DNA of 64,000 nucleotides from Acholeplasmataceae bacterium (GCA_021108415.1 JAIOQX010000006.1:186001-250000); one strand, 5' to 3'; counted from the stretch's first letter, positions 1,764-20,823 are shown. A program made the numbers and translations. Notes: a model not told the origin generated them from the sequence alone.

Positions 1764-1799
1764 TTATTTTCCTCCTATTTTTTTAAATCATTCAACAGT

Positions 1800-1828
1800 A
1801 TTTTATAACCAAATGAAAACGCTGTCAA
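1800..1828 (-). promoter_or_regulatory. Sigma-A promoter of the 1763 gene
   Basis: On the minus strand there is TTGACA (1823-1828), a 17-base spacer and TAAAAT (1800-1805), about 40 bases upstream of the ATG at 1763. The -35 hexamer is a perfect consensus. Confidence 0.75.
1814..1827 (+). promoter_or_regulatory. cre-like catabolite operator
   Basis: TGAAAACGCTGTCA matches every position of the Gram-positive cre consensus TGWAANCGNTNWCA. It overlaps the -35 box and spacer of the promoter of the gene starting at 1763, a position where CcpA or another LacI-family protein would repress. No ccpA gene lies in the window, so the cognate regulator is inferred. Confidence 0.65.
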
Positions 1829-1895
1829 TGTAGTAAAGAGATTTGTGTTGTTTTTCTTTGGTTTTTGCGCAGTTTGAATATTTTTTTCAATATAA

Positions 1896-4800: not shown

Positions 4801-5135
4801 GTATATTCGCTTTGAGTTGTTGTAATTTCAACGCTACTTTCTACGGTTACAACAATAGTCACAAATATCGCTTCATCACTTTTTGAAATCACCTTCACAT
4901 TCGCACTACCAACACTTAAAGCAGTTACCAAACCACTTTCACTTATTGTTAATACGTCTTCATCACTTGATTCAAATACAACTGAATCATTTGCACCTAC
5001 TTCGATTTGATATGTTTCACCTGTCTTCATTGTGACCGCAAGGTCATCGACTGAAACAGTAATTTCTTTGCCACAAGAAAATAAAACAAACAAAACAAAT
5101 AAAAACGATAAACTTAATACGCCTCTTTTAAACAT
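1896..5135 (-). CDS. Surface lipoprotein: Ig-like repeats, beta-helix, N-acetylmuramoyl-L-alanine amidase
   Basis: A 1079-residue lipoprotein with signal peptide and lipobox LFSC (Cys21). It carries about four BIG2-type Ig repeats (residues about 25-335), a right-handed beta-helix-like region (about 345-590) and two more BIG2 repeats (about 615-790). The C-terminal Amidase_2/PGRP-type domain (about 860-1010) would hydrolyse the MurNAc-L-Ala bond of peptidoglycan. Expected zinc ligands are visible: His in VVVHDTAN, and His and Cys eight residues apart in KYHNDFSGKDCP, including the Lys before DC seen in T7-lysozyme-type amidases. The enzyme therefore looks intact and displayed on a long membrane-anchored stalk. 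It is the last gene of the operon and overlaps the preceding gene by 8 bases; no convincing terminator follows. Odd if the host has no wall of its own. Confidence 0.9.
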   Translation of the reverse strand: MFKRGVLSLSFLFVLFVLFSCGKEITVSVDDLAVTMKTGETYQIEVGANDSVVFESSDEDVLTISESGLVTALSVGSANVKVISKSDEAIFVTIVVTVESSVEITTTQSEYTLKTGETVDLSYTANSDVSLSSSDEAIFTISGDTITGVSEGVATLTITSTTDTTVFEEISVTVRKSIDLSVEETYIELWVGKTEQILFTSNDEVEFVISDSLIASVSSSGLLTGLDNGLVTIEVVSTYDDTVKETLTARVYNPAETLIISGNEIVNANTMMTLTADVGPDDAYEYVTWTSSDETVATVSETGILTALSSGMVTITATSMYDDALTDEIEIEVVNYLVVDETKESGSTLTYMGLDLSYGVDLFDTISAAAAQAVEGSTIYILAGTYQEDVTIDTQGVTLDGNDLAIIDGVVHIAADQVNLKNLSFNGQSQITNALNITGFVFSNNTVLNTTMSQNFIDLDTIFDVAILDNTFTTLAAGNAISIENYLGGLIEVKRNVINQANTGIKLIARDNYDSLTKVQIERNMISNVAIGIEINTLSANDIQDYLRFNAVSSYTNLALKANENHKMDVTLNYWGQATPNYADFENVTTYELRGYYSELSEIISEADYVEGQIVKIVPDEETIEIVIGDTYKVSFEILPVEVASGSVRYITSDSETLRIGGTGILNPVKSGEALLTILLSSDYSINAKIPVVITTTPGIELTPSSKMQNLLVGDSFTLDAMVFPYDISDEDVLFETDDALIATIDQEGVVSSQGAGVVTFTAKLISDPLVMQSFTVEFFSSLNDSNLLDLLTKNQVNYTESHEVTAYGTGYSYTVDLFESVSRYYFGDLEINQSKMIPVFNGIRPGEPMDDLPSGVTQYNPYNVYWVVVHDTANTSTGAGALSHANYLWNAYSAGTQLWVSWHFSIDDKDIYQHLPEIERGYHAGDGSTQPLQSSTYLGGGNRNGIGIETGVNDDSDLYRTWQRTAKLVAELLNRYNLPRENMKYHNDFSGKDCPRTLRNAGLIPLFEELADIEYIVENDFSDAEITFVSNNPEYLDETGRVIQQPDRAMTVSYTVTVDIDGVISSRTFYSYLPGTIH

Positions 5136-6186
5136 GTTTTTTCTCCTCCACTTTACGATATATTAGATTTGCTATTTGATTTCTATATCTTATAATATGA
5201 TTTAACTCTCTTTTTGGATGAACTGCATTAGATAGCATCACAAACCCTATCTCGTTTTTTCGATCGATGAACATATTACATCCAGTAAACCCTGTATGTA
5301 AAATACTTTGATCAAAATCTACATAATCTCCTGCTGAACTCCCTTGAGTAGGTTTATCCCATCCAAGTGCTCTTTTTAACGGTGTATCTTTTAAAGACAA
5401 TTTTTCTTCTCTGACTTTAAATATCATATTTAGTGTTTCTTTTTTTAATACAAATTTATCTTCTAGTATTGCTTTTATAAATATAGCTAAGTCATGTGTT
5501 GTTGAAAAAAGACCTGCATGCCCTGCTTGACCTAACGCAAATGCTTTTTCATCATGAACCCTACCTTTAAGTAACCCTTGATAGACTGCATCATCTCTTA
5601 ACTCTGTCGGTGCACATCTATCTATATCAGGAAGATATGATGTATCATTCATCCCTAAAGGTTTAAATATTAGTTCTTGTCCATTTTCATTTAATGATTT
5701 ATGAGTAATCTTTTCTATCATCAACCCCAATAATATAAACCCGATATCTGAATAACAAATACGACTACCTTTTTCATATATAATTTTAACACTTTTTATT
5801 CTATTGATCACATCAGTCTTATCTTTAAGTGTATTTGCTCGTGAAATATCAGCTGGAAGTCCAGAAGTGTGTGTTAAAAGATCATATACACATATATCTT
5901 TGATATGAAACCAATCAAGAATATCAGAGACACATGTATCAAGTGATAATAGATTATCTTCAATAAGTTTCATTACCAATGTAGTTGTAGACACCACCTT
6001 AGTAAGAGATGCGATATCATAAATTTCATTACCTTTTAAAGGTTTTAATTCAGGATAGGTTTGCATATATCCGACATAAGATGACAAAGTTTTTTTTGCT
6101 TTGTATACAATTGAAAAATGTGCACCAGGAAAGTGTTTCAATGAAACACCTTCCTCTAGTACATCTTTAATAATTTTATCTATCAT
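5128..6186 (-). CDS. Beta-lactamase-fold serine hydrolase, probably cytoplasmic
   Basis: A 352-residue class C beta-lactamase/penicillin-binding-protein-type serine hydrolase. The catalytic SxxK is SLTK near residue 60, the second motif is YSD (a YxN variant) near residue 145 and the third is HTG near residue 300. No signal peptide or membrane segment is visible, so a cytoplasmic place is likely, which argues against antibiotic resistance. The Bacillus subtilis muropeptide-rescue operon also carries a protein of this fold (YbbE/AmiE, assigned as MurNAc-L-Ala amidase). By context this gene may process imported muropeptides; esterase activity is the alternative. It overlaps the upstream gene by 4 bases and the downstream gene by 8, indicating translational coupling. 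Confidence 0.82.
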   Translation of the reverse strand: MIDKIIKDVLEEGVSLKHFPGAHFSIVYKAKKTLSSYVGYMQTYPELKPLKGNEIYDIASLTKVVSTTTLVMKLIEDNLLSLDTCVSDILDWFHIKDICVYDLLTHTSGLPADISRANTLKDKTDVINRIKSVKIIYEKGSRICYSDIGFILLGLMIEKITHKSLNENGQELIFKPLGMNDTSYLPDIDRCAPTELRDDAVYQGLLKGRVHDEKAFALGQAGHAGLFSTTHDLAIFIKAILEDKFVLKKETLNMIFKVREEKLSLKDTPLKRALGWDKPTQGSSAGDYVDFDQSILHTGFTGCNMFIDRKNEIGFVMLSNAVHPKRELNHIIRYRNQIANLIYRKVEEKKHV

Positions 6187-9100
6187 TTTAAGTTAACTTT
6201 TTCTTTTTTTCTGATCATAAACACCAATGATGTTCCTAATACCAATGCAAAAGTAATAAATATCGCACTATTTGTATTAATCGCAGAAAAACAACCAGTT
6301 TTAGGAGGATCTACTTCCTCTTCTTCAATCAAGCTACAAGCTCCATTAATATACTCATATCCTGTAGCACAAGAGGTATCAATAACCTCAAGACTAATTG
6401 TTCTAATAGAACTTTCAACACCTTGATCATTTATTGCTTTAAAAGAAACTACATAAATACCCAATTGATTAATGACGACTGGTGTACTATACAACATCCA
6501 ATTGCCAGCTCCAATCTTATAATAAATATCATCATCTGACATTAAATTGATTGTTACTCTATCTTCAAATTTATATTCCGATACAATTGTTCCAGTAATA
6601 CTAAAAACAGGCTGATCTACTGGTTCTACTTCTTTGACTACATCACTTTCCCAAGGGAATGATGGATATTCAGTCCAATAAGTTAATGACAATCTTTCTA
6701 GAGAACTAACGATATTTGTATTTAAATTATTTAATGTTTTATATGAGAAGATTGAACTACCAATAATACTATCATATTGAGAAATATATCTTAACTGTTC
6801 AATGAGTTCATTTGGATCATCCCAAGTATTATCTGTATATCTATAAAAACCTATCCCTATAATTAAATCTACACCTGATGCTTCTGTTAATTCTGCCCAC
6901 CAATCTACTAAATCAGCAAACGGAGCACTACTATGATTAAACTGCCAATAAAGTTGTGGCATGATGTAATCTAGCCAACCTTCCATCACCCATTTTCTGG
7001 TATCTGCATAAGCATAATTATAACTTTCAAATGTTGATGATGTATGTGAGCCTAATTCACCACCTGGTCTAATATTTCCACTATAATCATATTTTGATTT
7101 CCAGATGCCTGAAGGGCTAATACCAAATTTAATATTTTTATCTTGAGTTTCGTTATAACTATGAATTGTATTCGATAAGTTTTCAATGAGCATGTCAACG
7201 TTTCTTCTTCGCCAATCAGCTAATGTTTCACCTGTGTTTTTAGTTCTATTATAAAGTTCTTGATCTTCTGATGCGTCTATATTACTTAAATAGAAATAAT
7301 CATCAAAATGAATACCATCAATATCATATTTACTCATTAACTCATTTACTACATTTAAAATATATGCTCTAACTTGTGCTTCGCCTGGATTTAAAATTAG
7401 TTTTCCGTCCGCTCCAGCAATCACTAGATCAGGATTTTGTTTCGCAAAATTATCATCATGAAGTAAATCAAGTTGAGTTTGCTTAGCACTTGTTCCAGTT
7501 GATACACGATATGGATTTAACCATGCGTGCACTTCAATGCCTCGTTTATGAGCCTCTTCAATAATGAATCCAAAGACATCCCATCCAGGACTACTACCTT
7601 CTACACCTGTTAAGTATCTACTCCATGGTGCATAATCACTATCATAGAAAGCATCATTCATTGGTCTAGTTTGAAAGAACATAACATTAAAGTTTAAGGC
7701 TTCTAATCGATCTAACATCGTTATAATTTCTGTTTTATAAGATGCTTCTGAATAATGCATACCAATATCTATATTAGCAACAGTTGCAACCCATACAGCT
7801 CTAATTTCATCTGTTTTTTCTGTATAACTCGTTGGTAATTCTATAGGTGTATCTGTTTGGAAATATTCAACAACTGAACCATCTCTTATAATAAATCTAT
7901 TGTTTTCAGTTGGTGGAATAGATAATCTTACACGCTGATCCAATGTTTCAGAAATATTTAATGCTTGATCTTTTGCATAATATTCTATTGTGAAATTACC
8001 ATCAAATATAAGTTCTAAAGCTTGGCTATAAACTTGCCAATTTGACCAATTTGTACCATTATGTATTCTATAATAAATAACATCATTAACATCTCCAGGT
8101 GTTAATTCTACAGTTGTTTCTTCAATGTAGAAAATGCCTTCTTTATCCCCTATAACAGTAATGATAGGGTCTTCTGGTGCACTTTGATCAATTGTGATCT
8201 CGCGTGAAATTACATGTTGAAGTCCATCTTCATTTCTCACAGATATTTGATAATCTCCTTCTTGATCAATTGTGAAAGCTGTTGTATATGTCATCCAACT
8301 TCCATCATTAATTTTATATGATATTTCTGGTGCATCACTATCTAAAGTAACAAGAGCTTCTTGATAGAAAGGATCTTGTCCCACACCAGATATCGAAATG
8401 GTTGGATCTGGATAAACCTCATCAACTACATCTATACCTTGTGTATACACGATTGATTCTATACCTTCAGCATTAATTGTTTTAATTTGGAAATAAAATC
8501 TTTCAGCTTGGTCTAACGTAATGGGTCCCTCATATAAGTTCCAACTACCAGCTCCAAGAGATGGTCTATTGATTGCAACCCATATTGGATTAGTATCCGA
8601 CTCAAGTGTTACAACCGCTCCAACTATATAATCATCACCTAGCATATCACCAGATATGGATAGGGTAGGTATATCATTATTTATTTTATCAATTTCAAAT
8701 TGTATACCTTCTACTAGACTTTCTTGAGCACTTCCGTTAACTGCTTTGACATAAATGACATGATCGCCTTGAGCCGTAAACTCAAGAGGTGTAGTATATA
8801 ACGTCCACGAGAAATCCCCTAAATGATAATAGATATCATCAGTTGCTGATAGACTAACCTCAACATCAGAGCGATATGCTCCATTGCTAAATGTGCCATC
8901 TATCGTATATGTTGGTGTGTCTACACCACTACTTTCCCAAGTGTTTAAAGGCGTTGTTGTCCATGCGTTATTAACTACATAATCCATATGTGATGTATCT
9001 AGATAAGACGCACTATATAACATAGACCCTTTTATTTCTGGATATTTTTGGTTATATTTTATTTGTTCATAAAATTCTGATACATGATACTCAGTCTTAT

Positions 9101-10211
9101 AAATCCCATGACCAATAATTAAATCAACATCTGTTCCTCGAACTGTTTCAACCCACCAATCTACAACGTCTGCGTATGGAGCAAGTCCATGTCTAAAATT
9201 CCAATAGATTTGTGGATTCATATAATGAACCCAACCTTCTTCTACCCATTTTTTAGTATCTGCAAATTGTGAATAATATGTTTGACTTGAACCAGATGCT
9301 ACATTTGCTCCATCAGGTTCTCCAACTTTCCAAATGCCTAAAGGTGAAACACCAAATCTAACATCTTTAGATTCTGATAAATTATAAGCATCTACAGTTT
9401 CTTTAACGCCACGAATGGCATCATTTACATTTTCTCTTCGCCAGTCTGCTTGAGTTTGACCGGCTTCTTTATATGTGTTATATGTTGCGCCATCAGTTGA
9501 GACACCTGCATATGGATAAAAATAATCATCAAAATGGATTCCATCAACATCATATAAATCCATAATCTCATCAACAACATTTTGAATATATGTTACAACT
9601 TCTGGTTCACCAGGATTTAAGATGAGTTTGCCATCATTATCTGCAATAACTAAATCTGGATTTAATCTTGCAAAATTTTCTGCATGAAGACCATTAAGTA
9701 ATGCTGTTTTATCACCTGCTGTTGTTGTCACTCTATAAGGATTCATCCACGCATGAAATTCGATACCTCTTGCGTGTGCTTCAGATACTAAATACGCCAT
9801 GACATCCCAGCCTGGATCAGTACCCTCTGTACCCGTTAGATAACGACTCCATGGTGCATATGCACTATCATAGAATGCATCATTTCTAGGTCTTACTTGA
9901 AATAAGATAGCATTCATATGTGCAGCTTCCATTTCATCTAACAAACTATCATATGCTGCTTTATATTGTAATTCACTAGAATAGACAGGCATATTTAGGT
10001 TATAAACGGTTGCAACCCAAACACCTCTAAATTCACTTGTTTTTTCCACATAAGTTTGTGGTGTTTGTACACGATCGCTTGTTCCATAGTGATAAACAGC
10101 TGAACCACCAACACTTAAATCTTGTAGGGGCCCATCTGCAATCGTTTTAATGCCTATACCTAATGTAAAAACACCTATGATTATAAATATGAAACTCATT
10201 ATTTTCTTCAT
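6183..10211 (-). CDS. Surface protein with two GHL10 (DUF187) glycosyl-hydrolase modules
   Basis: 1342 residues. It has a signal peptide (1-26), a first GHL10/DUF187 TIM-barrel-type module (about 60-405), four or so Ig-like/OmpL47-like spacer repeats (about 425-760), a second GHL10 module (about 790-1165), another Ig-like repeat, and a C-terminal membrane helix (about 1310-1332) with a basic tail. The modules share motifs such as VWVAT, RNDAFYDS or MNDAFYDS, PWSRYLTG, WLNPYRV or WMNPYRV, and GIHFDDYFY. The E. coli homologue DigH (YddW) cleaves peptide-free peptidoglycan glycan, so a muramidase-like role after the amidase is plausible. A KTGC motif sits just before the C-terminal helix. The 3' end overlaps the next gene by 4 bases. 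Substrate is inferred. Confidence 0.88.
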   Translation of the reverse strand: MKKIMSFIFIIIGVFTLGIGIKTIADGPLQDLSVGGSAVYHYGTSDRVQTPQTYVEKTSEFRGVWVATVYNLNMPVYSSELQYKAAYDSLLDEMEAAHMNAILFQVRPRNDAFYDSAYAPWSRYLTGTEGTDPGWDVMAYLVSEAHARGIEFHAWMNPYRVTTTAGDKTALLNGLHAENFARLNPDLVIADNDGKLILNPGEPEVVTYIQNVVDEIMDLYDVDGIHFDDYFYPYAGVSTDGATYNTYKEAGQTQADWRRENVNDAIRGVKETVDAYNLSESKDVRFGVSPLGIWKVGEPDGANVASGSSQTYYSQFADTKKWVEEGWVHYMNPQIYWNFRHGLAPYADVVDWWVETVRGTDVDLIIGHGIYKTEYHVSEFYEQIKYNQKYPEIKGSMLYSASYLDTSHMDYVVNNAWTTTPLNTWESSGVDTPTYTIDGTFSNGAYRSDVEVSLSATDDIYYHLGDFSWTLYTTPLEFTAQGDHVIYVKAVNGSAQESLVEGIQFEIDKINNDIPTLSISGDMLGDDYIVGAVVTLESDTNPIWVAINRPSLGAGSWNLYEGPITLDQAERFYFQIKTINAEGIESIVYTQGIDVVDEVYPDPTISISGVGQDPFYQEALVTLDSDAPEISYKINDGSWMTYTTAFTIDQEGDYQISVRNEDGLQHVISREITIDQSAPEDPIITVIGDKEGIFYIEETTVELTPGDVNDVIYYRIHNGTNWSNWQVYSQALELIFDGNFTIEYYAKDQALNISETLDQRVRLSIPPTENNRFIIRDGSVVEYFQTDTPIELPTSYTEKTDEIRAVWVATVANIDIGMHYSEASYKTEIITMLDRLEALNFNVMFFQTRPMNDAFYDSDYAPWSRYLTGVEGSSPGWDVFGFIIEEAHKRGIEVHAWLNPYRVSTGTSAKQTQLDLLHDDNFAKQNPDLVIAGADGKLILNPGEAQVRAYILNVVNELMSKYDIDGIHFDDYFYLSNIDASEDQELYNRTKNTGETLADWRRRNVDMLIENLSNTIHSYNETQDKNIKFGISPSGIWKSKYDYSGNIRPGGELGSHTSSTFESYNYAYADTRKWVMEGWLDYIMPQLYWQFNHSSAPFADLVDWWAELTEASGVDLIIGIGFYRYTDNTWDDPNELIEQLRYISQYDSIIGSSIFSYKTLNNLNTNIVSSLERLSLTYWTEYPSFPWESDVVKEVEPVDQPVFSITGTIVSEYKFEDRVTINLMSDDDIYYKIGAGNWMLYSTPVVINQLGIYVVSFKAINDQGVESSIRTISLEVIDTSCATGYEYINGACSLIEEEEVDPPKTGCFSAINTNSAIFITFALVLGTSLVFMIRKKEKVNLK

Positions 10212-11428
10212 TTATGCCTGCCTCCTGTAAATAACTCTTCTACTTTTTTAACACCTAGTTCTGTTTTACCAGAATCAGTAAACGTATGACATGTAAAAAA
10301 CACATGACCTTTAACTTCTTTAAACTTAGAAACATATTTTAATTGATTTACTATTTCTTCAGGATTTTCAAATTCACCTTCATTACCAAGACGATATAAA
10401 GCATGTCCGATATATAAATCAACATCAGTTTTTTTGACAGCATCTACCCAAAAATTTACTATATCTGCAAACGGTGCAATTGCATGTCCGAATTCCCAAT
10501 AAATTTGAGGAACTATATAATCTATATAGCCTTCTTTAACCCATGTATAACTATCTGCATATTCATTTGAAAAACTTTGACTGCATTTAGGATCAGTATT
10601 TGATCCAAATGTATCTTCAGTTTTGTTTTTCCATATGCCAAATGGAGAAACACCGAATCTCAAGTTTGGATTAACTTTTTTTAACTCTATATGCATATCT
10701 CTAATGACTTCTGTCACTTGAGCTCTTCTAAAATCTTCTATAGACTGAGATACATCTGTTCTTTGTTCATATTCTTTGATATCATTATCGCTTTCAATAA
10801 GCCCGCCATATGGATAAAAATAATCATCGAAATGGATACCGTCTATATCATAATTTGTCGCAAGTTCGATCATTGACTCTAATATAAATGATTTTACCTC
10901 ATTTCGTGCAGGATTTAAAATTAATTGCCCTCTATGGTCAGTTACAACTAGATCTCTATGTTGTTTTGCGAAGTTTAAATCATCACATTGATCTAAATAT
11001 TCAGATTTAGATAATTTAGATACCATAGAGACTCTATATGGATTACACCATGCATGAAACTCTATTTGATATTGTCTTGCTTGTTCTATAACCCATTTTA
11101 ATACATCAAAAGGAGGTTCTTTTCCTTCTTTTCCTGTTAAATATCTACTGTATGGATTTAACTTGGATTGATAAAATGCATCATTAGTTGTTCTTACCTG
11201 AAAAAACACTGCATTTAAATTAAATCTTTTGCAAGTTTCAAAAATATCAATAACTTTATCTTTGTAAGCATCTATATCTTCAGTTGTTGGCATGTCTATG
11301 TTTAATACATTTGATATCCACATTGCTTTAAATGGTTTATCTATATATTTTTTAGGGATGACTACTTGTTTTTTTGTGTTATAAAAATTAATTGGAGTTT
11401 TTTCGTCTTTATATTTATACAACTTCAT
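10208..11428 (-). CDS. GHL10 (DUF187) family glycosyl hydrolase, cytoplasmic
   Basis: A 406-residue single-module GHL10 protein with the same landmarks as the two modules of its neighbour (MWISNV, TTNDAFYQS, YSRYLTGKEG, WCNPYRV, GIHFDDYFYPYGG, GVSPFGIWK). It has no signal peptide and no membrane segment, so it is probably the internal counterpart acting on imported oligosaccharides. It overlaps the next gene by 4 bases and is separated from the upstream GH4-like gene by one base, so it belongs to the same transcript. Probably arose by duplication from the same ancestor as the surface modules. The bond it cuts is not determinable from sequence. Confidence 0.85.
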   Translation of the reverse strand: MKLYKYKDEKTPINFYNTKKQVVIPKKYIDKPFKAMWISNVLNIDMPTTEDIDAYKDKVIDIFETCKRFNLNAVFFQVRTTNDAFYQSKLNPYSRYLTGKEGKEPPFDVLKWVIEQARQYQIEFHAWCNPYRVSMVSKLSKSEYLDQCDDLNFAKQHRDLVVTDHRGQLILNPARNEVKSFILESMIELATNYDIDGIHFDDYFYPYGGLIESDNDIKEYEQRTDVSQSIEDFRRAQVTEVIRDMHIELKKVNPNLRFGVSPFGIWKNKTEDTFGSNTDPKCSQSFSNEYADSYTWVKEGYIDYIVPQIYWEFGHAIAPFADIVNFWVDAVKKTDVDLYIGHALYRLGNEGEFENPEEIVNQLKYVSKFKEVKGHVFFTCHTFTDSGKTELGVKKVEELFTGGRHK

Positions 11429-11429
11429 T

Positions 11430-12728
11430 TTATTGCTCCTTAGTATAATATGCTAAATATTTTTTATTTGATTTAATAAACATTTCAAAAGCTGATTTTG
11501 TCTGTACGTGATCAAACATTAAAGGGTGCACTTTTAAACTTGATAAAATTTTATTTAAATCTTTTTCATAAATTGCATCCGCAAAAAGCTCTTCAAAAGA
11601 TTTAATGTGTTGGAGAAGCCCTTTAATTTGATTAGGTATTCTTGACATATGAATAGGCATTGGCCCATCTTTTGTGATTCTTGCAGAAATTTCTATTGCT
11701 GAATTTTCAGGAAGATCATTCAAATGCCCATTGTTAATTGTATTGATGATTTGATAGTCTCTTTTATCAGTTATCATCGATTCGATTAACTCAACAGTTT
11801 TAATGGTTTGTTCTAATCCGCTTCTTGTCTTTAACAAATCCATAGCTTGAACTACATTTGATTTTTTATATAAATCAAAGAGTTGATTTTCTATCAATGT
11901 GTTTAAAACTGGTTCTGTTTTTTGATGCTCAAAATTATCAATAAACTCATTTAGTTTGTCTTCTTGTTTATACATATATTTTAAATCTGTACTGGGATAC
12001 ACTTCAAAATCTTTAAGAAAGTCTTTAGACCAACAGCATTTGTTTTCTTCTTTTAGTATGATTTTTATCAATTCTCTAAATTTATCTTTTTTCTTATGAA
12101 AAGCATGTGTCATAAATGTGATTGGACTTAGCCCTGCAGCATATATAATCAATTGACTTTCATCAATTTTTAATAAATCGGAAAAACACGCTTGAACTTT
12201 TAATGGCACATGAGAGATTCCTATATATTTATCAAATTCGGCATATCTAATAACTGCTTCACTTATAAGTCCCATGGGTTGCGTAAGATTGATCATCCAC
12301 GCATCTTGACATACTTCATTCATTTCATCAATAATTTGATAAATAACTGGTATAGTTCTAATTGCATCAAATACACTACTCATACCAAAAATATCGCTGG
12401 CATACATATGATGTTCATAACAAATCTTCTCATCAACGAGTTTTTGAGCATACATACCCACATTAACTTGAGTTACCACATAGGTTGCATGTTTTAATGC
12501 ATCTCTTCTGTTCGTTGATTTAAATAGCTTTAAATCACTTTTTTGTTCATTGATAAGCTTTTTAGAAAACTCATATATGATATTTAATCTATCTGCTTGC
12601 TCATCAATATCAACTAACCATAATTCATCAACTCTAAACTCATCATGTTTATCTATTAAGCTTTGAACTAAAAACGGTGTATATGATGATCCTCCACCAA
12701 TAACAACAATTTTAACTTCTTTACTCAT
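11430..12728 (-). CDS. Glycoside hydrolase family 4-like, NAD-dependent phospho-glycosidase
   Basis: 432 residues from the chosen ATG. The N-terminal Rossmann fold shows IGGGSSYTP, followed by LVDID and QVNVGMYAQK and then LTQPMG in place of the FTNP-type motif, all typical of GH4 6-phospho-glucosidases (LicH, CelF, BglT type). These act by NAD-assisted oxidation-elimination and need Mn2+ bound by a Cys and a His. Here the usual Cys region reads GISHVP, so the metal-binding Cys appears replaced by Ser while the His remains. That makes substrate and even activity uncertain. Operon position next to anmK suggests a phosphorylated amino-sugar disaccharide. An in-frame TTG at 12740 and an ATG at 12734 are alternative starts; 12728 has the better GGAA spacing. 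Confidence 0.78.
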   Translation of the reverse strand: MSKEVKIVVIGGGSSYTPFLVQSLIDKHDEFRVDELWLVDIDEQADRLNIIYEFSKKLINEQKSDLKLFKSTNRRDALKHATYVVTQVNVGMYAQKLVDEKICYEHHMYASDIFGMSSVFDAIRTIPVIYQIIDEMNEVCQDAWMINLTQPMGLISEAVIRYAEFDKYIGISHVPLKVQACFSDLLKIDESQLIIYAAGLSPITFMTHAFHKKKDKFRELIKIILKEENKCCWSKDFLKDFEVYPSTDLKYMYKQEDKLNEFIDNFEHQKTEPVLNTLIENQLFDLYKKSNVVQAMDLLKTRSGLEQTIKTVELIESMITDKRDYQIINTINNGHLNDLPENSAIEISARITKDGPMPIHMSRIPNQIKGLLQHIKSFEELFADAIYEKDLNKILSSLKVHPLMFDHVQTKSAFEMFIKSNKKYLAYYTKEQ

Positions 12729-12771
12729 AGTCATTTCCAACTTTCATTTAGATTTATTAATCAAATGTGTT

Positions 12772-13911
12772 TTAACGATAATAGTTTATTTGTCCTAATA
12801 TTTTATAATCTTTTGCTCCAGTAGCACTTTTAACACTTGAAGGCAAACGATTGATTGTTTGATTTCCTAAGATTAGAAACGCTAAGGCTTCTTTATATTG
12901 ACTACTATAGCCGTATTCTTCTAAAACTGCTACTTTAGTATCTTTCATCTTTTTAGCAAGCTCATTTTTTATAAACAAATTAAGTGCGCCTCCACCACAT
13001 AAGATCAGTTCATCAACTGGTTTTTTGATTAAGTTTTTATAACTGTTTACAATTGAATCAACAACAACCATGGATAAAGTGCATATGATATCTTCTGCTT
13101 TGTCTTCTTTATACATTGAGATTATATCTTGAGTGTATGCATCTCCAAAAGTTTCTCTTCCTGTTGATTTTGGATAGGGTAGTTTATAGTAGGGATGATC
13201 CATCATCTCTTGATACATTTGCCCAATGATTTTACCTTTGCTTGCAATATCACCGTTTGCATCATAATCTAATTGATAAAACATTTGACAAGCTTTATCG
13301 ATCATCATGTTACCTGGGCCACTATCAAAAGCAATGACATCATCTAATTGAGCACCTCTTTGTATATATGTCATATTGCTTATTCCACCAATGTTGTGGA
13401 TTGCTCTTGATTTATTTAAATCAGAAAAAAGTATAAAGTCTGCATATGGAACCAGTGGTGCACCTTGTCCTCCACTAGCAATATCAGCAAGTCTAAAATT
13501 AGAAATCACTGTAGTTTTACACATCTCAGCAATCACTGAAGCTTCACCTAGCTGTAGAGATGATCTAAATAATTTTTGACTTGAAATAGGAATGTGATAA
13601 ATAGTTTGTCCGTGAGATGCGATAAAACTAATCTCTTCTGGATTAATATTTTCGCTTTGATAAAAATCTAAAACAGCCTGACCAAATACATACCCAAGTT
13701 CTACATTTAAACTGCTTATTAAAGAAGCTGATGATATGTGATCATCCATGGCATCTCTTATTTTTTGAACAACATCCTCTTTAAATGGATAAGTTTTTTC
13801 TTTAAGTACTTTAACTTTAGTATTTAAAGAAACTCCTGATATCTCAGCTAAAACAATATCTATGCCATCTAAGGATGTTCCGCTCATTAATCCTATAGCT
13901 AATTTTTTCAT
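12772..13911 (-). CDS. anmK: Anhydro-N-acetylmuramic acid kinase
   Basis: 379 residues, the normal AnmK length. It uses ATP to open and phosphorylate 1,6-anhydro-MurNAc to MurNAc-6-phosphate in peptidoglycan recycling. Visible family blocks are GLMSGTSLDGID at the N-terminus, SHGQTIYHIP, NIGGISN, DSGPGNMMIDKA and ILCGGGALN. It is the first gene of the six-gene operon reading towards 1896, 31 to 43 bases before the GH4-like gene. A TATAAT -10 lies just upstream with a cre-like half-match on the weak -35 and an inverted repeat further up. The product needs a MurQ etherase to be used, and none is in this window. Identification is firm. Confidence 0.95.
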   Translation of the reverse strand: MKKLAIGLMSGTSLDGIDIVLAEISGVSLNTKVKVLKEKTYPFKEDVVQKIRDAMDDHISSASLISSLNVELGYVFGQAVLDFYQSENINPEEISFIASHGQTIYHIPISSQKLFRSSLQLGEASVIAEMCKTTVISNFRLADIASGGQGAPLVPYADFILFSDLNKSRAIHNIGGISNMTYIQRGAQLDDVIAFDSGPGNMMIDKACQMFYQLDYDANGDIASKGKIIGQMYQEMMDHPYYKLPYPKSTGRETFGDAYTQDIISMYKEDKAEDIICTLSMVVVDSIVNSYKNLIKKPVDELILCGGGALNLFIKNELAKKMKDTKVAVLEEYGYSSQYKEALAFLILGNQTINRLPSSVKSATGAKDYKILGQINYYR

Positions 13912-13931
13912 ATATACACCTTTTCACTATC

Positions 13932-13960
13932 ATTATAATGCATAAACACAATAAAAAGAG
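13932..13960 (-). promoter_or_regulatory. Putative promoter of the anmK operon
   Basis: On the minus strand, TATAAT (13932-13937) lies about 20 bases upstream of the anmK start. At 17 bases upstream the -35 is poor (CTCTTT), suggesting an activated or weak promoter. Partial cre-like sequence (13959-13972, 10 of 14 positions) covers the -35. Confidence 0.45.
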
Positions 13961-13982
13961 AAAGCGCTTGAGTTTAGGTTGT

Positions 13983-14023
13983 TTTTTTCAAGATTAAAAA
14001 AAACATGAACTCTTGTGAAAAAA
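13983..14023 (+). promoter_or_regulatory. Imperfect inverted repeat, candidate regulator operator
   Basis: TTTTTTCAAGA (13983-13993) and TCTTGTGAAAAAA (14011-14023) form an inverted repeat with a 2-base bulge, located between the anmK promoter and the terminator of the MurR-like gene. The position is right for binding by the adjacent RpiR/MurR-family regulator. Its use as an operator is inference. Confidence 0.4.
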
Positions 14024-14054
14024 CAAAATCATTAATTTTAATCCGTTTTTGATA

Positions 14055-14081
14055 CAAAAAACACCTTCTTTTGAAGGTGTT
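14055..14081 (-). terminator. Rho-independent terminator of the MurR-like gene
   Basis: AACACCTTC (14060-14068), loop TTTT, GAAGGTGTT (14073-14081): a perfect 9-bp stem followed on the minus strand by a T run. It starts at the stop codon of the regulator and separates it from the anmK operon. Confidence 0.85.
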
Positions 14082-14934
14082 ATCTTTTAAATTTTTTAAA
14101 TGATTTATAAGTCATCTCTAGTGTTCTAACAGAACGATCAATATCCACATATGCACATCTTGCAAAAAGTGCATCTATCATACACATTTGAGAGATTCTT
14201 GAAGTCATTGCTGCACTTCTAAACTCTCCTTCTAGTGAAGATGTATATAAGACAACATCTGATAAATCAGCTAACATAGAACTTCCTATCTTTGTAATGC
14301 TAATAATTTTTGCTTTGTTTTCTTTAGCAAGTAATGCTGCACTTATAATCTCTTTTGTTTTACCTGAATTGGAAACAAATATGATCACATCTTTTTGACT
14401 GATAAACGTTGCATCTACCAACTGATCATGTGATTCACCTTGAGCGATACAAAATTTATTGATTCTTCTAAGTTTCATTTCTAAGTCTTTACAAACTAGA
14501 TATGATGATCCTTTACCAAAAATTAATATTTTTCTAGCACCCATAATGAGCTCTGCAGCTTTAGATACAGTTTCTTCATCATAAAGTTTTAAAGTATCTT
14601 CTAAAACTTTAATATTGTTTTCAATTGCTGTTTTTCCACAATGAGAATCTTTTGCTAAAACAACATCAAAATACTCTTTATTTTCTGGAACTTCTACTTT
14701 AGCATTCGCTAATATAAAGTCGATTTTAAAATCTTTAAACCCTTTATATCCAAGCTTCTTACACATTCTAACAACAGATGCAGGTGATGTGTATGCAGCT
14801 TCAGCTATTTTTTCTACACTAAAGTCTTTAAGTACTGATTTATTTTCAATTAAATAATCTAATACTGCTCTTTCAGCCATGCTTAAATCTTCTTTATATT
14901 TAAGCATATTTAACATGACACTAATATCAATCAC
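14080..14934 (-). CDS. MurR/RpiR-family transcriptional regulator
   Basis: 284 residues. An N-terminal RpiR helix-turn-helix (about residues 10-80, with VEKIAEAAYTSPASVVRMCKKLGY) is followed by a SIS sugar-phosphate-binding domain (about 120-250, with IFGKGSSYLVCKD and FVSNSGKTKE). Such proteins sense phosphosugars; MurR senses MurNAc-6-phosphate. Its place directly upstream of the anmK operon makes that ligand the best guess. The annotated start is a GTG lying very close to GGAAGG; an ATG at 14916 would remove six residues and matches the usual family N-terminus. A TATAAT lies about 45 bases upstream and a small palindrome sits between it and the gene. Other phosphosugar ligands cannot be excluded. 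Confidence 0.85.
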   Translation of the reverse strand: MIDISVMLNMLKYKEDLSMAERAVLDYLIENKSVLKDFSVEKIAEAAYTSPASVVRMCKKLGYKGFKDFKIDFILANAKVEVPENKEYFDVVLAKDSHCGKTAIENNIKVLEDTLKLYDEETVSKAAELIMGARKILIFGKGSSYLVCKDLEMKLRRINKFCIAQGESHDQLVDATFISQKDVIIFVSNSGKTKEIISAALLAKENKAKIISITKIGSSMLADLSDVVLYTSSLEGEFRSAAMTSRISQMCMIDALFARCAYVDIDRSVRTLEMTYKSFKKFKR

Positions 14935-14954
14935 CCTTCCTTGTATGTAATCAT

Positions 14955-14984
14955 AACACTGTAAGTGTTTTCATATACATTATA
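14955..14984 (-). promoter_or_regulatory. Putative promoter -10 and operator palindrome of the MurR-like gene
   Basis: Minus-strand TATAAT (14979-14984) is followed at the expected start of transcription by AACACT-GTA-AGTGTT (14955-14969), a perfect 6-bp inverted repeat without a T run, so more like an operator than a terminator. No good -35 is seen, and no terminator separates this from the lactate dehydrogenase gene upstream, so readthrough is also possible. Confidence 0.4.
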
Positions 14985-15053
14985 TCATCTAAATACTTAT
15001 TTTAAAACTTAGAATGCTTAATACAAAGAGAAACAATTGATATTTAGGTTTAT

Positions 15054-16451
15054 TTAAATAACTTTGCCTGGATTTAAAATATGTTTTGGATCAAAACTCT
15101 CTTTTATGCCCCTCATGATTCTTAATTGGGTATCTCCCAATAAAGTTTTCATATATGCTCTTTTAGCAAATCCAATCCCATGTTCTCCAGAAACTAGACC
15201 TCCAAAACTAAAAGCTTTTTCATACATGAGTTTGAATCCTTTTGATATTTTTTCTTCCCAAATCTCTTTAGGCATAGAATCTTTACAAAAGTAGATGTGT
15301 AAATTGCCATCACCAACATGTCCAAAATATGGAATTCTTATATCTAAGTCTTTACTCAATTTTCTAACATAAGTTAAAAACTCACTAATTTTAGATCTTG
15401 GAAGAACAACATCACATTCATCAATTTCATCAGATGATGATTTGATGGCTTCTAAAAATCCGCCTCTAACATTCCAAACACTATTTCTTCTCTCTTCTGT
15501 ATCTACTAAAAAGACATCAATTGCATGATATTTTTCAAGACATAATTTAGATGCAACACTGATGTCTTGATCAATCGCATCTTCATTATTTCCATCATAG
15601 CTTAATAATAAATATGCTTCAAAGTTATTATGTGGTATTTTTTTACCTAAGAATTCTTCGCTATACTGTAAAGATTGTTTTTCTAAAAATTCTACTGCAA
15701 CAGGTAGTACATGATCAACAATTAATTTAGGTGCTGCAGCTATTGCGTCTTCTCTATTTTTAAATGGAACTAATAAGCTAACTGTTTTTAATGGTTTTGG
15801 AATAAGTTTTAAAGTTGCTTCTACAATAATAGCAAGCGTGCCTTCACTTCCAATAACTAAATCTTTTAAGCCATAACCGGTTGAGTTTTTTACAACTTTA
15901 CCACCAAATTTTTCAATGCTTCCATCAGGAAGTACAACTTCTAATCCTCTAATCCAGTCTCTAGTTACACCATACTTAATTGCACGCATGCCGCCTGCAT
16001 TAGTTGAAATATTCCCACCTATGGTTGCTGTTTTTTCACCAGGATCTGGTGCATAAAAGAGTCCTTCTTTTTCTACGCATTCATAAATATCAAGCAATAG
16101 TACACCCGGTTCTACTCTTAATGTTAAGTTTGTTCGATCAAGTTCGATGATTTTATTCATTTTTGATGTATCTAATAAAATACCACCATAAATCGGTACA
16201 CAAGCACCAACTAAACCAGTGCCTGCTCCTCTGACTGTTACTGCTATGCTTTCTTGATTGGCATAAGCCATAATTTTTGATATTTCTTCTTTGTTTTTCA
16301 CCATGATATGAACATCAGGATAAGCATTAACTGTACCAAGTTCATCATGAGAAAAATCTTTTTCTATTTGATCTCCAACAAAAAATCTATCATGATCAAC
16401 AAATGAAAGTAACTCTTTTAAGTCTCTTGAATCAATTTTCTTATAATTCAT
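15054..16451 (-). CDS. lctD: FAD-dependent D-lactate/glycolate dehydrogenase, LctD-like
   Basis: 465 residues of the GlcD/FAD-oxidase family: a PCMH-type FAD domain (about 45-225, with GAGTGLVGACVP and TIGGNISTNAGG) and a C-terminal FAD-oxidase domain ending in GEHGIGFAKR and ILNPGKVI. It oxidises a 2-hydroxyacid, probably D-lactate to pyruvate. It follows an EtfB and a ferredoxin-domain EtfA with one base between stop and start, the gene order of Acetobacterium woodii lctBCD. In that complex electrons from lactate reach NAD+ with the help of reduced ferredoxin (electron confurcation). Glycolate is the alternative substrate. Start at 16451 fits the family N-terminus. Confidence 0.88.
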   Translation of the reverse strand: MNYKKIDSRDLKELLSFVDHDRFFVGDQIEKDFSHDELGTVNAYPDVHIMVKNKEEISKIMAYANQESIAVTVRGAGTGLVGACVPIYGGILLDTSKMNKIIELDRTNLTLRVEPGVLLLDIYECVEKEGLFYAPDPGEKTATIGGNISTNAGGMRAIKYGVTRDWIRGLEVVLPDGSIEKFGGKVVKNSTGYGLKDLVIGSEGTLAIIVEATLKLIPKPLKTVSLLVPFKNREDAIAAAPKLIVDHVLPVAVEFLEKQSLQYSEEFLGKKIPHNNFEAYLLLSYDGNNEDAIDQDISVASKLCLEKYHAIDVFLVDTEERRNSVWNVRGGFLEAIKSSSDEIDECDVVLPRSKISEFLTYVRKLSKDLDIRIPYFGHVGDGNLHIYFCKDSMPKEIWEEKISKGFKLMYEKAFSFGGLVSGEHGIGFAKRAYMKTLLGDTQLRIMRGIKESFDPKHILNPGKVI

Positions 16452-16452
16452 C

Positions 16453-17646
16453 TTAGGCCTCCAATATTTGGTCCACTAATCTATTAAGCTCTGGTAGAAC
16501 ATCATACACATCTCCAACAATAGCATAATGGCTTATATCAAATAGTTTATTACTTTTATCCTTATTTACGGTAATGATAAGCTCACTATCTTTCATACCT
16601 TCTATATATTGGACTGCACCACTAATCCCTAAATTGATAATTAATTTTGGTTTAACTGTTCTTCCTGAAAGTCCTATTTGTTTTTTAGCATCAAACCATC
16701 CATTTTCAATTAATGGTCTAGTACATGCGATCTCTGCATTTAATTTTTTTCTTAGTGGTTCTATTAAATCTAGGTCTTTTTGTTTCTTAAAAGCGCGCCC
16801 TACTGCAATGATGACTTCAGCATCGCTGATGTCATTAACTCTAGGCTTTGGATAATGGTCTATGATTTTAATTGTAGACTGTTTATTAATTAAAGATGTA
16901 TCTTCGTAAATGGCCTTACCATGAGGTTTCACAACATCTGCTTGATCAAACATTTTATATCTTATTGTTGCCATTTGAGGTCTATCATTTGGTGTGTGGA
17001 TCTTAGCCATAATGTTACCCCCAAATGCTGGTCTGATTTGAAGTAGATCTTTTGACTCTGTCATATCTAACATTGTACAATCAGCAGTTAACCCTGTCTT
17101 TAATCTTGCCGCAACTTTAGGTGCAAAACTCCTACCTAGAGGTGTCCCTCCATATAAAATCACATTATTATGATATTTGTTAAAGAATGCTTCAACAACA
17201 TTTGTATATAGTTCTACATTAAAATCTTTAAATGCTTGATCTTGATAGACAAAAACTTTATCAACACCAAAACTTAATGCTGTTTCAACAATATCAGAAA
17301 CATCATCTCCACAAACAATCGCAAACACTTCTTCCTTACTCTTTTTAGCGAGTTCTTTTGCTTTACCAATCAATTCCCAACTTACAGGATGAGCTTTATT
17401 TTCATGTTGTTCTATAAATACTGCAATGCCGTTATACTTAGCTTTATCAATCTTAGGTTTAGGATTATCTATGAGTTCACAAACTCCTAAAGGACCTTTT
17501 TTAACACACATCTTACATATCTTACAAGATGCATTAATAGATAAATATGCATCTTGATAATCAAATGCATTAAAAGGACAAATGTCTATTAATTGTTTTG
17601 CGAAATCTTTAGTTACTTTATCTTGATTTACTTTTATATATGCCAT
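16453..17646 (-). CDS. lctC: Electron transfer flavoprotein alpha with ferredoxin domain, LctC-like
   Basis: 397 residues, longer than a plain EtfA (about 320). The extra N-terminus (about 1-65) has CPF near residue 24 and CKICKMC near residue 41, together four cysteines suited to one [4Fe-4S] cluster, as in the ferredoxin domain of bifurcating EtfA. The rest is ETF alpha: an N-terminal nucleotide-type fold, then the FAD-binding part with GLTADCT, RPAFGGNIMA, GLSGRTVKPKL and ISGAVQYIEGM. It would pair with the EtfB encoded 8 bases upstream and with the GlcD protein 1 base downstream. The ferredoxin-like domain is what distinguishes it from ordinary fatty-acid ETF. Confidence 0.9.
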   Translation of the reverse strand: MAYIKVNQDKVTKDFAKQLIDICPFNAFDYQDAYLSINASCKICKMCVKKGPLGVCELIDNPKPKIDKAKYNGIAVFIEQHENKAHPVSWELIGKAKELAKKSKEEVFAIVCGDDVSDIVETALSFGVDKVFVYQDQAFKDFNVELYTNVVEAFFNKYHNNVILYGGTPLGRSFAPKVAARLKTGLTADCTMLDMTESKDLLQIRPAFGGNIMAKIHTPNDRPQMATIRYKMFDQADVVKPHGKAIYEDTSLINKQSTIKIIDHYPKPRVNDISDAEVIIAVGRAFKKQKDLDLIEPLRKKLNAEIACTRPLIENGWFDAKKQIGLSGRTVKPKLIINLGISGAVQYIEGMKDSELIITVNKDKSNKLFDISHYAIVGDVYDVLPELNRLVDQILEA

Positions 17647-17654
17647 ATGATCAC

Positions 17655-18446
17655 CTAAACATATCTACTTTCTTTTAAAATATCAAATATTTTTTTAGAT
17701 AATGTTTTACCATCACCTTCAACCATTTCTGATTCCATGGTTTTATTTGGTGGAAATATTTCTTCTACTTGTGTAGGAGAACCACTTAATCCATAATGTT
17801 CAGGATCTTGATCTTCTAGATCTTTTAAAGTCATCATTGGTATTTTGTAAGACTCAAAAGTCTCTTTTCTTTTAAATGATGGTAGTCTTGGAACATAACT
17901 ATCTTTTTCTACGGTAATTAAACATGGATAATCAACTTCTACTTTTTCATCGTATAAATCATATCCGCTGACAACAACTATAGATTTTTCTTTAACCTCT
18001 ATAACTTTTTTAACATAAGGGACATGAGGGATATGTAAAAACTCTGCAATTTCTGGTCCAACTTGTGCAGTATCTCCATCGGTGGTTTGTTTCCCACAAA
18101 TGATTAAATCATATTTACTAATATGTTTGATCAGTTGACTTAATGTATAAGATGTTGCAAGTACATCAGCACCAGCAAACCTTCTATCAGTTATTAATGT
18201 CGCATCATCAGCACCCATATATAAAGCTTCATTTAAAACAATGGTTGCGCTAGGCGGTCCCATTGATACTGCATGTATATTGATATCTTTTTGACCTTTT
18301 TTAATTTGAAAAGCCGCTTCTAATGCATAAAGATCATATGGATTCATCTTTACATTATTCCCGTCTCTTTTTAAAACACCTGTTTTAGGATCTACTTCTA
18401 CATTAGACGAAGCAGGTACCTGTTTGATACATGTTATTATATTCAT
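17655..18446 (-). CDS. lctB: Electron transfer flavoprotein beta, LctB-like
   Basis: 263 residues, typical EtfB length. The N-terminus MNIITCIKQVP and motifs MNPYDLYALEAA, VSMGPPSA, MGADDATLITD, GKQTTDGDTAQVGPEIAEFL mark the ETF beta family; the loop after GADDA binds nucleotide or the bifurcating FAD in homologues. I start at 18446, where GAGGTG sits five bases upstream; an ATG three bases earlier and a longer frame from 18491 are less likely. First gene of the EtfB-EtfA-GlcD operon. No strong promoter is recognisable in the short gap behind the terminator at 18507-18535. Confidence 0.9.
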   Translation of the reverse strand: MNIITCIKQVPASSNVEVDPKTGVLKRDGNNVKMNPYDLYALEAAFQIKKGQKDINIHAVSMGPPSATIVLNEALYMGADDATLITDRRFAGADVLATSYTLSQLIKHISKYDLIICGKQTTDGDTAQVGPEIAEFLHIPHVPYVKKVIEVKEKSIVVVSGYDLYDEKVEVDYPCLITVEKDSYVPRLPSFKRKETFESYKIPMMTLKDLEDQDPEHYGLSGSPTQVEEIFPPNKTMESEMVEGDGKTLSKKIFDILKESRYV

Positions 18447-18506: not shown

Positions 18507-18535
18507 AAAAGAACATATACACGAATGTATATGTT
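18507..18535 (-). terminator. Terminator after the phosphodiester glycosidase gene
   Basis: AACATATAC (18512-18520) and GTATATGTT (18527-18535) pair over 9 bp with a 6-base loop; on the minus strand the stem is followed by CTTTTT. It lies between the gene ending at 18567 and etfB. Confidence 0.7.
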
Positions 18536-18566
18536 TTTTCAGGATTAGGAAAATATATTCATTTTG

Positions 18567-20147
18567 TTAATCGTTTAATTCAGATTTTGTAAAATCTTTA
18601 ATCATATCGATTAATAGATTTATATCATGTGGATAAACTTGATATAGATAAGATTGACTATAAACTGATGATATATAATCAACGCCACCTTTTGCTCTAA
18701 TAGATATTTCATGTAATCCTACGCTTAAGTTTAAAGGAAGGGATGTATTTGTGACAATCGTTTCTTTTCCATCAATTAAGACACTGTATGATATACTTCC
18801 TGGAATTTGATCAAATCTTAAATTGCCTTGAACATCCACATAAATATTAGATGGTGTATCTAATTGATCTCTAGTATCTGGCCAAGAAGGAATCGGATCA
18901 GGAACGACCTGATGTTCACCTCTTACAAAGAATATACCATTGCTGATTGCTCTTAATCTACCATCAGATGGTGTATTTAAGATAATATATCCTTCTTCTT
19001 GTTCATCATCAATTAATGCCATTGTGGAAGAACCGCCACCATCTAAATTGTAAGCGTCAACTGCGCCATAATAAAACATAATTTCTGCAAGCTCTGGAAG
19101 TGTAACTCCATCTCTACCGCTTGGTTTATCTCTACCATCAACAACCATAAAGAATACTGTACCATCTGCTTTAATTCCAACAGCTGTTCTAGGCGCTGGA
19201 AAGTTCCAAGAAGCTCCACCATTTAGGCCCACATTAACTGCGCCATCTATAACAAGATCTTGACCATCGGTACCAATTGCAAATCTGACATCTTCAAATT
19301 GATTAATGACATCTGCTTGAACAACAACATAATCATTTTCAGTAATCAATTGATCACTGTTAAATTCATATCCAACTATGACCATTTGGTTTTCTTCGAT
19401 ATTTTCTGTAGTTATCAATTGGCTTAAACTTCCTTTGCCAAAATAACTTCCAGTAGACTCTGTTATTTTAGTTTCTGTTGTATCAATATGGACTCTTGAA
19501 TAGCCTTGAGGAAGTGCATTTAAATAATTATCAAAATATACACTTATTTCATCGTTACTTTGTGGATCAGCATTGATACGATCTACTTTTAGTTTGTTTT
19601 TTAATTGGCCTTCATCATTAAAAACTAACAATTCATATCCATCAAATTGTGGTACGCCATGAACAACTTCACCATTATCTTTGAATCCAACAATAGGGCG
19701 GGATGAAGTATCACCTTTAGTGACAACTTCATAATTTCTAATATGAGCAGCTATGGGTCTACCTGTATTATTGATGTCATAAAAGTCACCATTAACACCA
19801 GCTAATACTTCATAATTATCATATCTTGAGTGTACATTTTCAATTAAACCATAAATATTGAACATGCCCCATTTTTGATTATCATCTTGTTGAAGCATAT
19901 AATTATCACCAATAACTATATTTAGATCACTTGCTTGAGTTGGATTAGCAGAAATATAATTCATGACCTGATTGGTTATTTTACCATCATCATTAATAGA
20001 TCCAATGATACTTGTGTGTCTAATGCCTTCTCTATATTCGGTAACCTTAGTATCTTCATTAATTCTAAAGCTGGCGTGTGCACTTGGTGCATCAAAGATG
20101 CCTAATGAAATGATCGTTAATAATATAAATATAAATATTTTTTTCAT
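18567..20147 (-). CDS. Exported phosphodiester glycosidase (NAGPA/DUF2233 family)
   Basis: 526 residues. A signal peptide (1-25, cleavage near AHA-S) precedes a phosphodiester-glycosidase domain (about 90-405) with the family landmarks NGDFYD, RPIVGF, TAVGIKADGTVFFMVVDGR and YNLDGGGSSTM. Family members such as the mammalian uncovering enzyme release N-acetylglucosamine from GlcNAc-1-phosphodiesters; bacterial members act on surface polymers such as teichoic-acid-like or exopolysaccharide linkages. The C-terminus (about 425-510) looks like a fibronectin-III or Ig module. It lacks an evident anchor, so it may be secreted. It follows a lipoprotein gene after 13 bases and ends at a clear terminator. 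Context suggests a role in foreign envelope sugars; the substrate is unknown. Confidence 0.85.
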   Translation of the reverse strand: MKKIFIFILLTIISLGIFDAPSAHASFRINEDTKVTEYREGIRHTSIIGSINDDGKITNQVMNYISANPTQASDLNIVIGDNYMLQQDDNQKWGMFNIYGLIENVHSRYDNYEVLAGVNGDFYDINNTGRPIAAHIRNYEVVTKGDTSSRPIVGFKDNGEVVHGVPQFDGYELLVFNDEGQLKNKLKVDRINADPQSNDEISVYFDNYLNALPQGYSRVHIDTTETKITESTGSYFGKGSLSQLITTENIEENQMVIVGYEFNSDQLITENDYVVVQADVINQFEDVRFAIGTDGQDLVIDGAVNVGLNGGASWNFPAPRTAVGIKADGTVFFMVVDGRDKPSGRDGVTLPELAEIMFYYGAVDAYNLDGGGSSTMALIDDEQEEGYIILNTPSDGRLRAISNGIFFVRGEHQVVPDPIPSWPDTRDQLDTPSNIYVDVQGNLRFDQIPGSISYSVLIDGKETIVTNTSLPLNLSVGLHEISIRAKGGVDYISSVYSQSYLYQVYPHDINLLIDMIKDFTKSELND

Positions 20148-20160
20148 ATATTTATCCTTT

Positions 20161-20823
20161 CTATATCACAGGTAGGACTAAACCTACTTGACCAAACGCT
20201 GTAAATGAAAACGTAAGATGATATGTTTCTTCTCCCAAGATCATATCAAAACTAAAATAATCAAGTTTTTCATTTAATAGCCCTACTTTAAAATTATTTA
20301 CTTCTCCTTCAGGAAAATCAGATTGGATAAGTTCAGATACTTGATCCAAATACTGATTACTTAAAATGTAATAATCATTTAATTTAGTAAACCAACTAGC
20401 TTCTAACATCTGATAAAAACCATAGCCCATCTCTTGATCAACACTTTCTAATAGATAGCTATTTCCTTGTTTTGTATACTGATTTACAGAAGTTTCAAGA
20501 GATTCATAATAAATCTTTTCATCTTCCATTTCAAACATAGCAAGGTTATCATCAAAACTTAATGACATTTCATAACTATATTCTATTGTGTTTTGTGAAT
20601 ACTCAACAACAACTTCTATCTTGTAATTAGATAATTCTTTGGTTGCAGCTAACGCAATCTTCATGTCTTCTAAATCTTGATCAACGATCACACAAACTCC
20701 ATTTTCCTCTATTTGATTGTCTCCACAAGTAAGTGGATCAACTGGATCAACGACTACTTCTTTTCCACACCCTGAAAAAGAAAATAGTAATAAAACAATT
20801 AGTACTCCCTTTAGTATTTTCAT
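20161..20823 (-). CDS. Hypothetical lipoprotein
   Basis: 220 residues with signal peptide and lipobox FSGC (Cys19). A short Asp/Val/Pro linker with three cysteines (CGDNQIEENGVC type) follows, a motif also seen at the end of the twin-GHL10 protein (CATGYEYINGAC type), then an acidic beta-rich domain with no family I recognise. It shares an operon with the phosphodiester glycosidase 13 bases downstream. A substrate-binding or assembly role outside the membrane is conceivable but not shown. Confidence 0.75.
   Translation of the reverse strand: MKILKGVLIVLLLFSFSGCGKEVVVDPVDPLTCGDNQIEENGVCVIVDQDLEDMKIALAATKELSNYKIEVVVEYSQNTIEYSYEMSLSFDDNLAMFEMEDEKIYYESLETSVNQYTKQGNSYLLESVDQEMGYGFYQMLEASWFTKLNDYYILSNQYLDQVSELIQSDFPEGEVNNFKVGLLNEKLDYFSFDMILGEETYHLTFSFTAFGQVGLVLPVI

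Follow-up and report, generated by a model that had tools for sequence, protein, structure and literature searches.

A 64,000-nt stretch of DNA from an Acholeplasmataceae bacterium (GCA_021108415.1, JAIOQX010000006.1:186001-250000; hereafter the window, G000 being its source genome) carries on the minus strand the genes lctB, lctC and lctD of an electron-confurcating lactate dehydrogenase next to genes for the catabolism of N-acetylmuramic acid (MurNAc). On comparative grounds we consider it very likely that LctBCD oxidises, by electron confurcation, the D-lactate which MurQ releases from scavenged MurNAc. A first-pass annotation of this DNA had proposed that the lactate ether of muramic acid could be burned by the neighbouring complex. 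Comparative genomics supports such a functional MurNAc-D-lactate link well, i.e., by the presence of murQ, the conserved linkage, the confurcating type of the enzyme, and failed matches to a lactate racemase and an LctP-type permease. The shared transcription unit which was part of the proposal does not hold for this genome. Genomes, loci, families and groups are labelled G, L, f and g, respectively.

The LctBCD complex

EtfB, a ferredoxin-domain EtfA and a GlcD-type dehydrogenase had been read on one strand upstream of a regulator gene; open reading frames and domain matches agree with this. The three genes lie together at 15054-18446: lctB for the EtfB subunit (17655-18446), lctC for an EtfA with an N-terminal [4Fe-4S] ferredoxin domain (16453-17646), and lctD for a GlcD-type, flavin adenine dinucleotide-dependent lactate dehydrogenase (15054-16451). 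The best PDB matches are the three chains of 7qh2, i.e., LctB (7qh2_B, E 1.5e-89), LctC (7qh2_A, E 2.6e-124) and LctD (7qh2_C, E 6.1e-182) of Acetobacterium woodii, which bears out the earlier naming as an electron-confurcating lactate dehydrogenase. There is a single ferredoxin domain in EtfA; its Cys23, 41, 44 and 47 align with A. woodii LctC, and Arg205 of LctC is retained in the same alignment. Judged by sequence, the complex is of the confurcating LctBCD type and its subunits are close orthologues of A. woodii LctBCD.

The A. woodii lct operon (Ldh-EtfAB) has the same three subunits in the order lctB-lctC-lctD, one EtfA ferredoxin domain, and the same substrate-site residues (PMC9232219). 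A lactate racemase and an LctP-type permease belong to an operon of that type; in contrast, G000 has no match for either, and the neighbours of lctBCD are MurNAc and peptidoglycan genes together with an RpiR-type regulator.

Ten substrate-site residues have been named for A. woodii LctD, L80, R328, L332, E344, D346, H377, H384, Y386, E422 and H423 in A. woodii numbering (PMC9232219). All ten are retained; of 74 LctD-like proteins in the alignment, 71 have the identical pattern. This bears on the question whether LctD might use another 2-hydroxyacid from wall or sugar breakdown, e.g., glycolate or D-2-hydroxyglutarate. The substrates of the GlcD superfamily are varied, and with 376 bits LctD stays below the cut-off of 568 for the NCBIfam glcD equivalog; consequently, the family alone leaves the substrate unfixed. 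However, LctD scores 608 bits with its A. woodii namesake, far above the 228 bits with a solved glycolate oxidase and the 171 bits with mitochondrial D-2-hydroxyglutarate dehydrogenase. These scores and the intact substrate site make a substrate other than lactate very improbable.

Linkage with the genes of MurNAc catabolism

Downstream of lctD and on the same strand the window contains a gene for an RpiR/MurR-family regulator (14080-14934, GTG start) and anmK (12772-13911), which codes for anhydro-N-acetylmuramic acid kinase with MurNAc-6-phosphate as product (NF007142, 490.6 bits, cut-off 435; PF03702). A search for murQ, advised at the outset, found one full gene in G000 (C3:166829-167695; TIGR00274, 388 bits, cut-off 302). 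At a distance of 31 kb past anmK, and on its strand, it belongs to the run nagB-murQ-murK-nagZ-namZ-DUF624 followed by genes for two ATP-binding cassette (ABC) permeases. The interval between anmK and murQ contains mostly same-strand genes, those for solute-binding proteins among them.

The operon for MurNAc catabolism of the Bacillus subtilis type is murQ-murR-murP-amiE-nagZ-namZ. According to family models NamZ, NagZ, MurQ and a MurR/RpiR-family regulator are also present here. In contrast to the B. subtilis type, G000 possesses ABC transport and kinases (MurK-like and AnmK) in place of a phosphotransferase system, LctBCD is joined on, and the regulator stands with anmK, 31 kb from murQ.

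We compared 88 Acholeplasmataceae genomes, defining an LctD orthologue by at least 62% identity. In all genomes with such an orthologue lctD, rpiR and anmK are side by side, contig permitting, except in G075, in which lctBCD adjoins murQ instead of rpiR-anmK; in G021 the neighbourhood has a 1.3-kb gap. This neighbourhood is more than chance.

Synteny in relatives, a check likewise proposed beforehand, gave the same answer on a larger scale: LctBCD-type genes track MurNAc genes in seven families of Bacilli, with compact murQ runs in several of them. In a class-wide sample of 395 Bacilli genomes, LctD orthologues are present in 52 and murQ in 99, and 50 genomes have both (Fisher 5.7e-33, uncorrected for phylogeny). 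Where lctD and murQ share a contig they are on one strand without exception (32 of 32; families f1, f2, f7, f10, f14, f17 and f22). There are two layouts. In 13 genomes (f1, f2, f10, f14, f22) lctD and murQ are about 30-37 kb apart; in 19 genomes (f1, f7, f10, f17) murQ is positioned 2.7-4.8 kb upstream of lctD in compact runs.

One such run, L140, reads ABC-DUF624-NamZ-NagZ-MurK-AnmK-MurQ-RpiR-GHL10-LctB-LctC-LctD. Past the ABC genes no gap exceeds 33 bp, and a strong terminator stands directly behind lctD. Only 14 bp separate murQ from lctB in L096, where a GH4 gene follows lctD, and 17 bp in L083. In 14 distinct loci murQ and lctB flank a gene for an alpha/beta-hydrolase (e.g., L100:7189-7911; L080 and L147, being one contig, were counted once), and L100 additionally has MupG. 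Contiguous, on one strand and closely spaced, the genes in several of these relatives fit a single MurNAc-LctBCD operon. In G141 (L139), which has no murQ, lctBCD adjoins genes for the lactate racemase LarA and an acetate-kinase-like protein.

In a tree of LctD proteins, obtained by a quick search with support from the approximate likelihood ratio test (SH-aLRT) only and with eight loci carrying no context label, all labelled MurNAc-linked LctDs group apart from the unlinked ones (98% SH-aLRT), and the switches between layouts are inside this group. The tree is in keeping with a linkage which arose once, long ago, and survived rearrangement; it gives no evidence for many independent origins.

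The longer layout has the appearance of an island of about 30-37 kb from lctD to murQ (in G000, window 1-13911 and C3:166000-186000). It is conserved and mostly same-strand, comprises genes for GH4, GHL10, beta-lactamase-fold, amidase/Big_2, DUF5696, solute-binding and ABC proteins, and varies little in length among five families.

Transcription units and regulation

No terminator had been seen between glcD and the regulator gene, and we also found no terminator-like site there (14935-15053), though a promoter-like site is present upstream of the regulator (TTTAAA-16-TATAAT with a TG before the -10, i.e., an extended -10; 14979-15006, minus strand). The first-pass annotation missed an intrinsic terminator between the regulator gene and anmK (AACACCTTCAAAAGAAGGTGTT-TTTT, 9-bp stem; 14060-14081, minus strand). 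A -10-like ATAAT block precedes the regulator in aligned relatives, too, and some g10 relatives have a stem and a T run behind lctD, as judged by eye from an alignment. Because of the terminator and the promoter-like site the window most likely has three predicted units: lctBCD; rpiR; and anmK plus the genes packed behind it (GH4, GHL10, beta-lactamase fold, amidase). One operon of lctBCD, regulator and anmK in G000 would agree with the common strand and with the missing terminator-like site behind lctD. Yet it is quite improbable in view of the intrinsic terminator, the promoter-like site before the regulator, and the stem-and-T-run sequences of the g10 relatives. A single MurNAc-LctBCD operon in G000 was rejected on account of the terminator, the promoter-like site and the 31-kb distance of murQ, and the joint operon first imagined for the window was given up with it.

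The regulator had been called MurR-like. This is correct at the level of the RpiR/MurR family (Pfam HTH_6, PF01418, and SIS, PF01380, both over cut-off). An identity as MurR itself was discarded as the protein scores 101.5 bits with the MurR equivalog NF012026, below its cut-off of 408. The regulator gene adjoins anmK also in genomes which have no LctD orthologue. Most likely, the RpiR regulator controls anmK and perhaps also lctBCD, in G000 as separate units.

A candidate operator, TTTTTTTAATCTTGAAAAA, is positioned upstream of anmK (13984-14002, minus strand) inside a block, TTGAAAAAAACAACCTAAA, which is largely conserved across genera and families. Upstream of lctB an inverted-repeat-like element, TTTTCCTAATCCTGAAAAA (18535-18553, minus strand), resembles it and is a second candidate; similar blocks precede lctB in relatives. 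No other site in the window comes within one mismatch of the pattern common to the two, which was built after comparing both upstream regions. As the pattern was chosen post hoc, and as an independent matrix derived from anmK places the lctB site no higher than sixth among 46 upstream regions of the window, a common operator of lctB and anmK is suggestive and co-regulation only a possibility. By eye, cre-like sequences were noticed upstream of anmK (AAGCGCTTTC, 13960-13970) and upstream of the regulator (TGAAAACACTTACA, 14960-14973), hinting at carbon catabolite control.

A role in the scavenging of peptidoglycan

G000 was queried family by family, and each absence reported here is that of a match to one family model. 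There is no match for MraY; apparently, the bacterium makes no wall. Neither LarA (PF09861 at E 1e-20) nor an LctP-type permease (PF02652, Lactate_perm) was matched, and pyruvate:ferredoxin oxidoreductase (PFOR) is present. LctBCD would then be the last step of peptidoglycan scavenging in an apparently wall-less bacterium. MurNAc would presumably enter by ABC transport, and the D-lactate set free by MurQ would be oxidised to pyruvate by LctD. Reduced ferredoxin would pay for the reduction of NAD+ at EtfAB (LctCB), and PFOR could resupply reduced ferredoxin. As to stereochemistry, bacteria with an lct cluster lacking a racemase use D-lactate only (PMC8914356), and D-lactate is the probable substrate here.

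The reaction, lactate + 2 NAD+ + 2 reduced ferredoxin -> pyruvate + 2 NADH, is reversible (PMC5861303). In principle, the complex could run backwards by bifurcation, forming D-lactate and reduced ferredoxin from NADH and pyruvate; lactate would then be a product of fermentation. However, in A. woodii the enzyme confurcates about ten times faster than it works in reverse (PMC9232219), and a D-lactate maker right behind a murQ which releases D-lactate makes little sense. We regard this direction as extremely doubtful.

The A. woodii complex has been characterised as an oxidiser of free lactate (PMC9232219). LctBCD might likewise serve lactate from the environment, in which case its place beside anmK would be inherited and metabolically meaningless; the separation of LctBCD from murQ in f20 and in Clostridia-type loci would accord with this. 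On the other hand, G000 shows no match for LarA or an LctP-type permease. Further, the lct genes occur in two MurNAc contexts, either downstream of murQ or beside rpiR-anmK, between which the LctD tree shows several switches, and among context-labelled loci the linked clade never leaves the MurNAc genes. Use of free environmental lactate is therefore considered unlikely.

Several observations weigh against the oxidation of MurNAc-derived D-lactate by LctBCD. In f20 LctBCD is not near murQ in nine genomes, though eight of the nine hold both. Five Acholeplasmataceae genomes (G001, G005, G006, G015 and G016) keep rpiR, anmK and murQ and have no LctD orthologue; hence the link is not obligatory, and the primary association of the regulator is with anmK. 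According to the LctD tree the linkage may have arisen once, long ago; the counted genomes are related, so that the Fisher value overstates their independence. In the window, transcription of lctBCD, of the regulator and of anmK is probably separate, with murQ 31 kb off, and the anmK-derived matrix does not single out lctB. Finally, the absences of racemase and permease stand on single family models. All in all, we still favour D-lactate from MurNAc as the substrate of LctBCD. Beyond G000 we lean towards a lineage-wide route from MurNAc to acetate, by which Bacilli with and without a wall would burn the lactyl ether of scavenged peptidoglycan through confurcation, LctBCD having entered the MurNAc regulon by capture.

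G002, G004 and G007 (L047, L046 and L045) are Etf-less: searches of the three whole genomes gave no LctC. Their LctD is still located beside rpiR-anmK and retains all ten residues. A search for PFOR covered two of the three, G002 and G007, and gave no match in either. The loss of the Etf module, the missing PFOR in the two genomes checked and the retention of LctD suggest a switch to another electron acceptor. Separately, in G001, G005 and G006 (L027-L029), where the LctD orthologue is absent, more distant GlcD-type proteins with 38-42% identity occur; in the two which were aligned, L027 and L028, several of the ten substrate-site residues are missing.

Relation to earlier work and significance

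The first-pass annotation knew of no operon joining the two functions. Indeed, in the literature searched, with subscription journals mostly outside it, there is no paper which joins confurcation with peptidoglycan or MurNAc catabolism. The oxidation of D-lactate from MurNAc, however, has been described. A D-lactate dehydrogenase is said to oxidise the MurNAc-derived D-lactate of Fidelibacter multiformis IA91 (PMC11652737). IA91 is similarly an anaerobe on the muropeptides of others, in which MurNAc-6-phosphate gives D-lactate which is then oxidised. Unlike the Acholeplasmataceae it belongs to another phylum and the muropeptides serve its own wall; the text consulted describes no genetic linkage to a confurcating EtfAB (PMC11652737). 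In engineered Corynebacterium glutamicum, D-lactate derived from MurQ accumulates and its use requires the native D-lactate dehydrogenase Dld (PMC6165865). The requirement for such a dehydrogenase is alike; the differences are the engineering, a quinone-dependent enzyme, and unlinked genes (PMC6165865). Known already, then, are the oxidation of MurNAc-derived D-lactate and LctBCD; new, within the literature searched, is their genetic coupling in Bacilli.

If the proposal is true, a free-living wall-less group gains a concrete energy source, i.e., the amino sugar and the lactate arm of the walls of others, and the latter would be usable without oxygen through electron confurcation. LctBCD would obtain a natural intracellular source of pure D-lactate; this would account for gene sets which lack a racemase or a permease. 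It would also predict which uncultured Bacilli turn over necromass. Acholeplasma was the main and rapid assimilator of 13C-labelled dead Escherichia coli in manure slurry (PMC4628116).

Neighbouring genes

The genes behind anmK are tightly packed, all on the minus strand. A GH4-family glycosidase (11430-12740; PF02056 and PF11975) starts 31 bp past anmK and is followed by a GHL10 glycosidase-like protein (10208-11428; PF02638). The next gene, which overlaps the preceding one by 4 bp, codes for a large protein with two GHL10-like regions (6183-10211), recognised by sequence reading and by tblastn similarity to GHL10 proteins. A beta-lactamase-fold protein (5128-6186; PF00144) and a protein with an N-acetylmuramoyl-L-alanine amidase domain and Big_2 repeats (1896-5135; PF01510 and PF02368) complete the series. 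On the other side, upstream of lctB, are genes for a NAGPA-domain protein and a small lipoprotein-like product (18567-20823). This pair accompanies lctBCD in most relatives, including G075, where the block is beside murQ.

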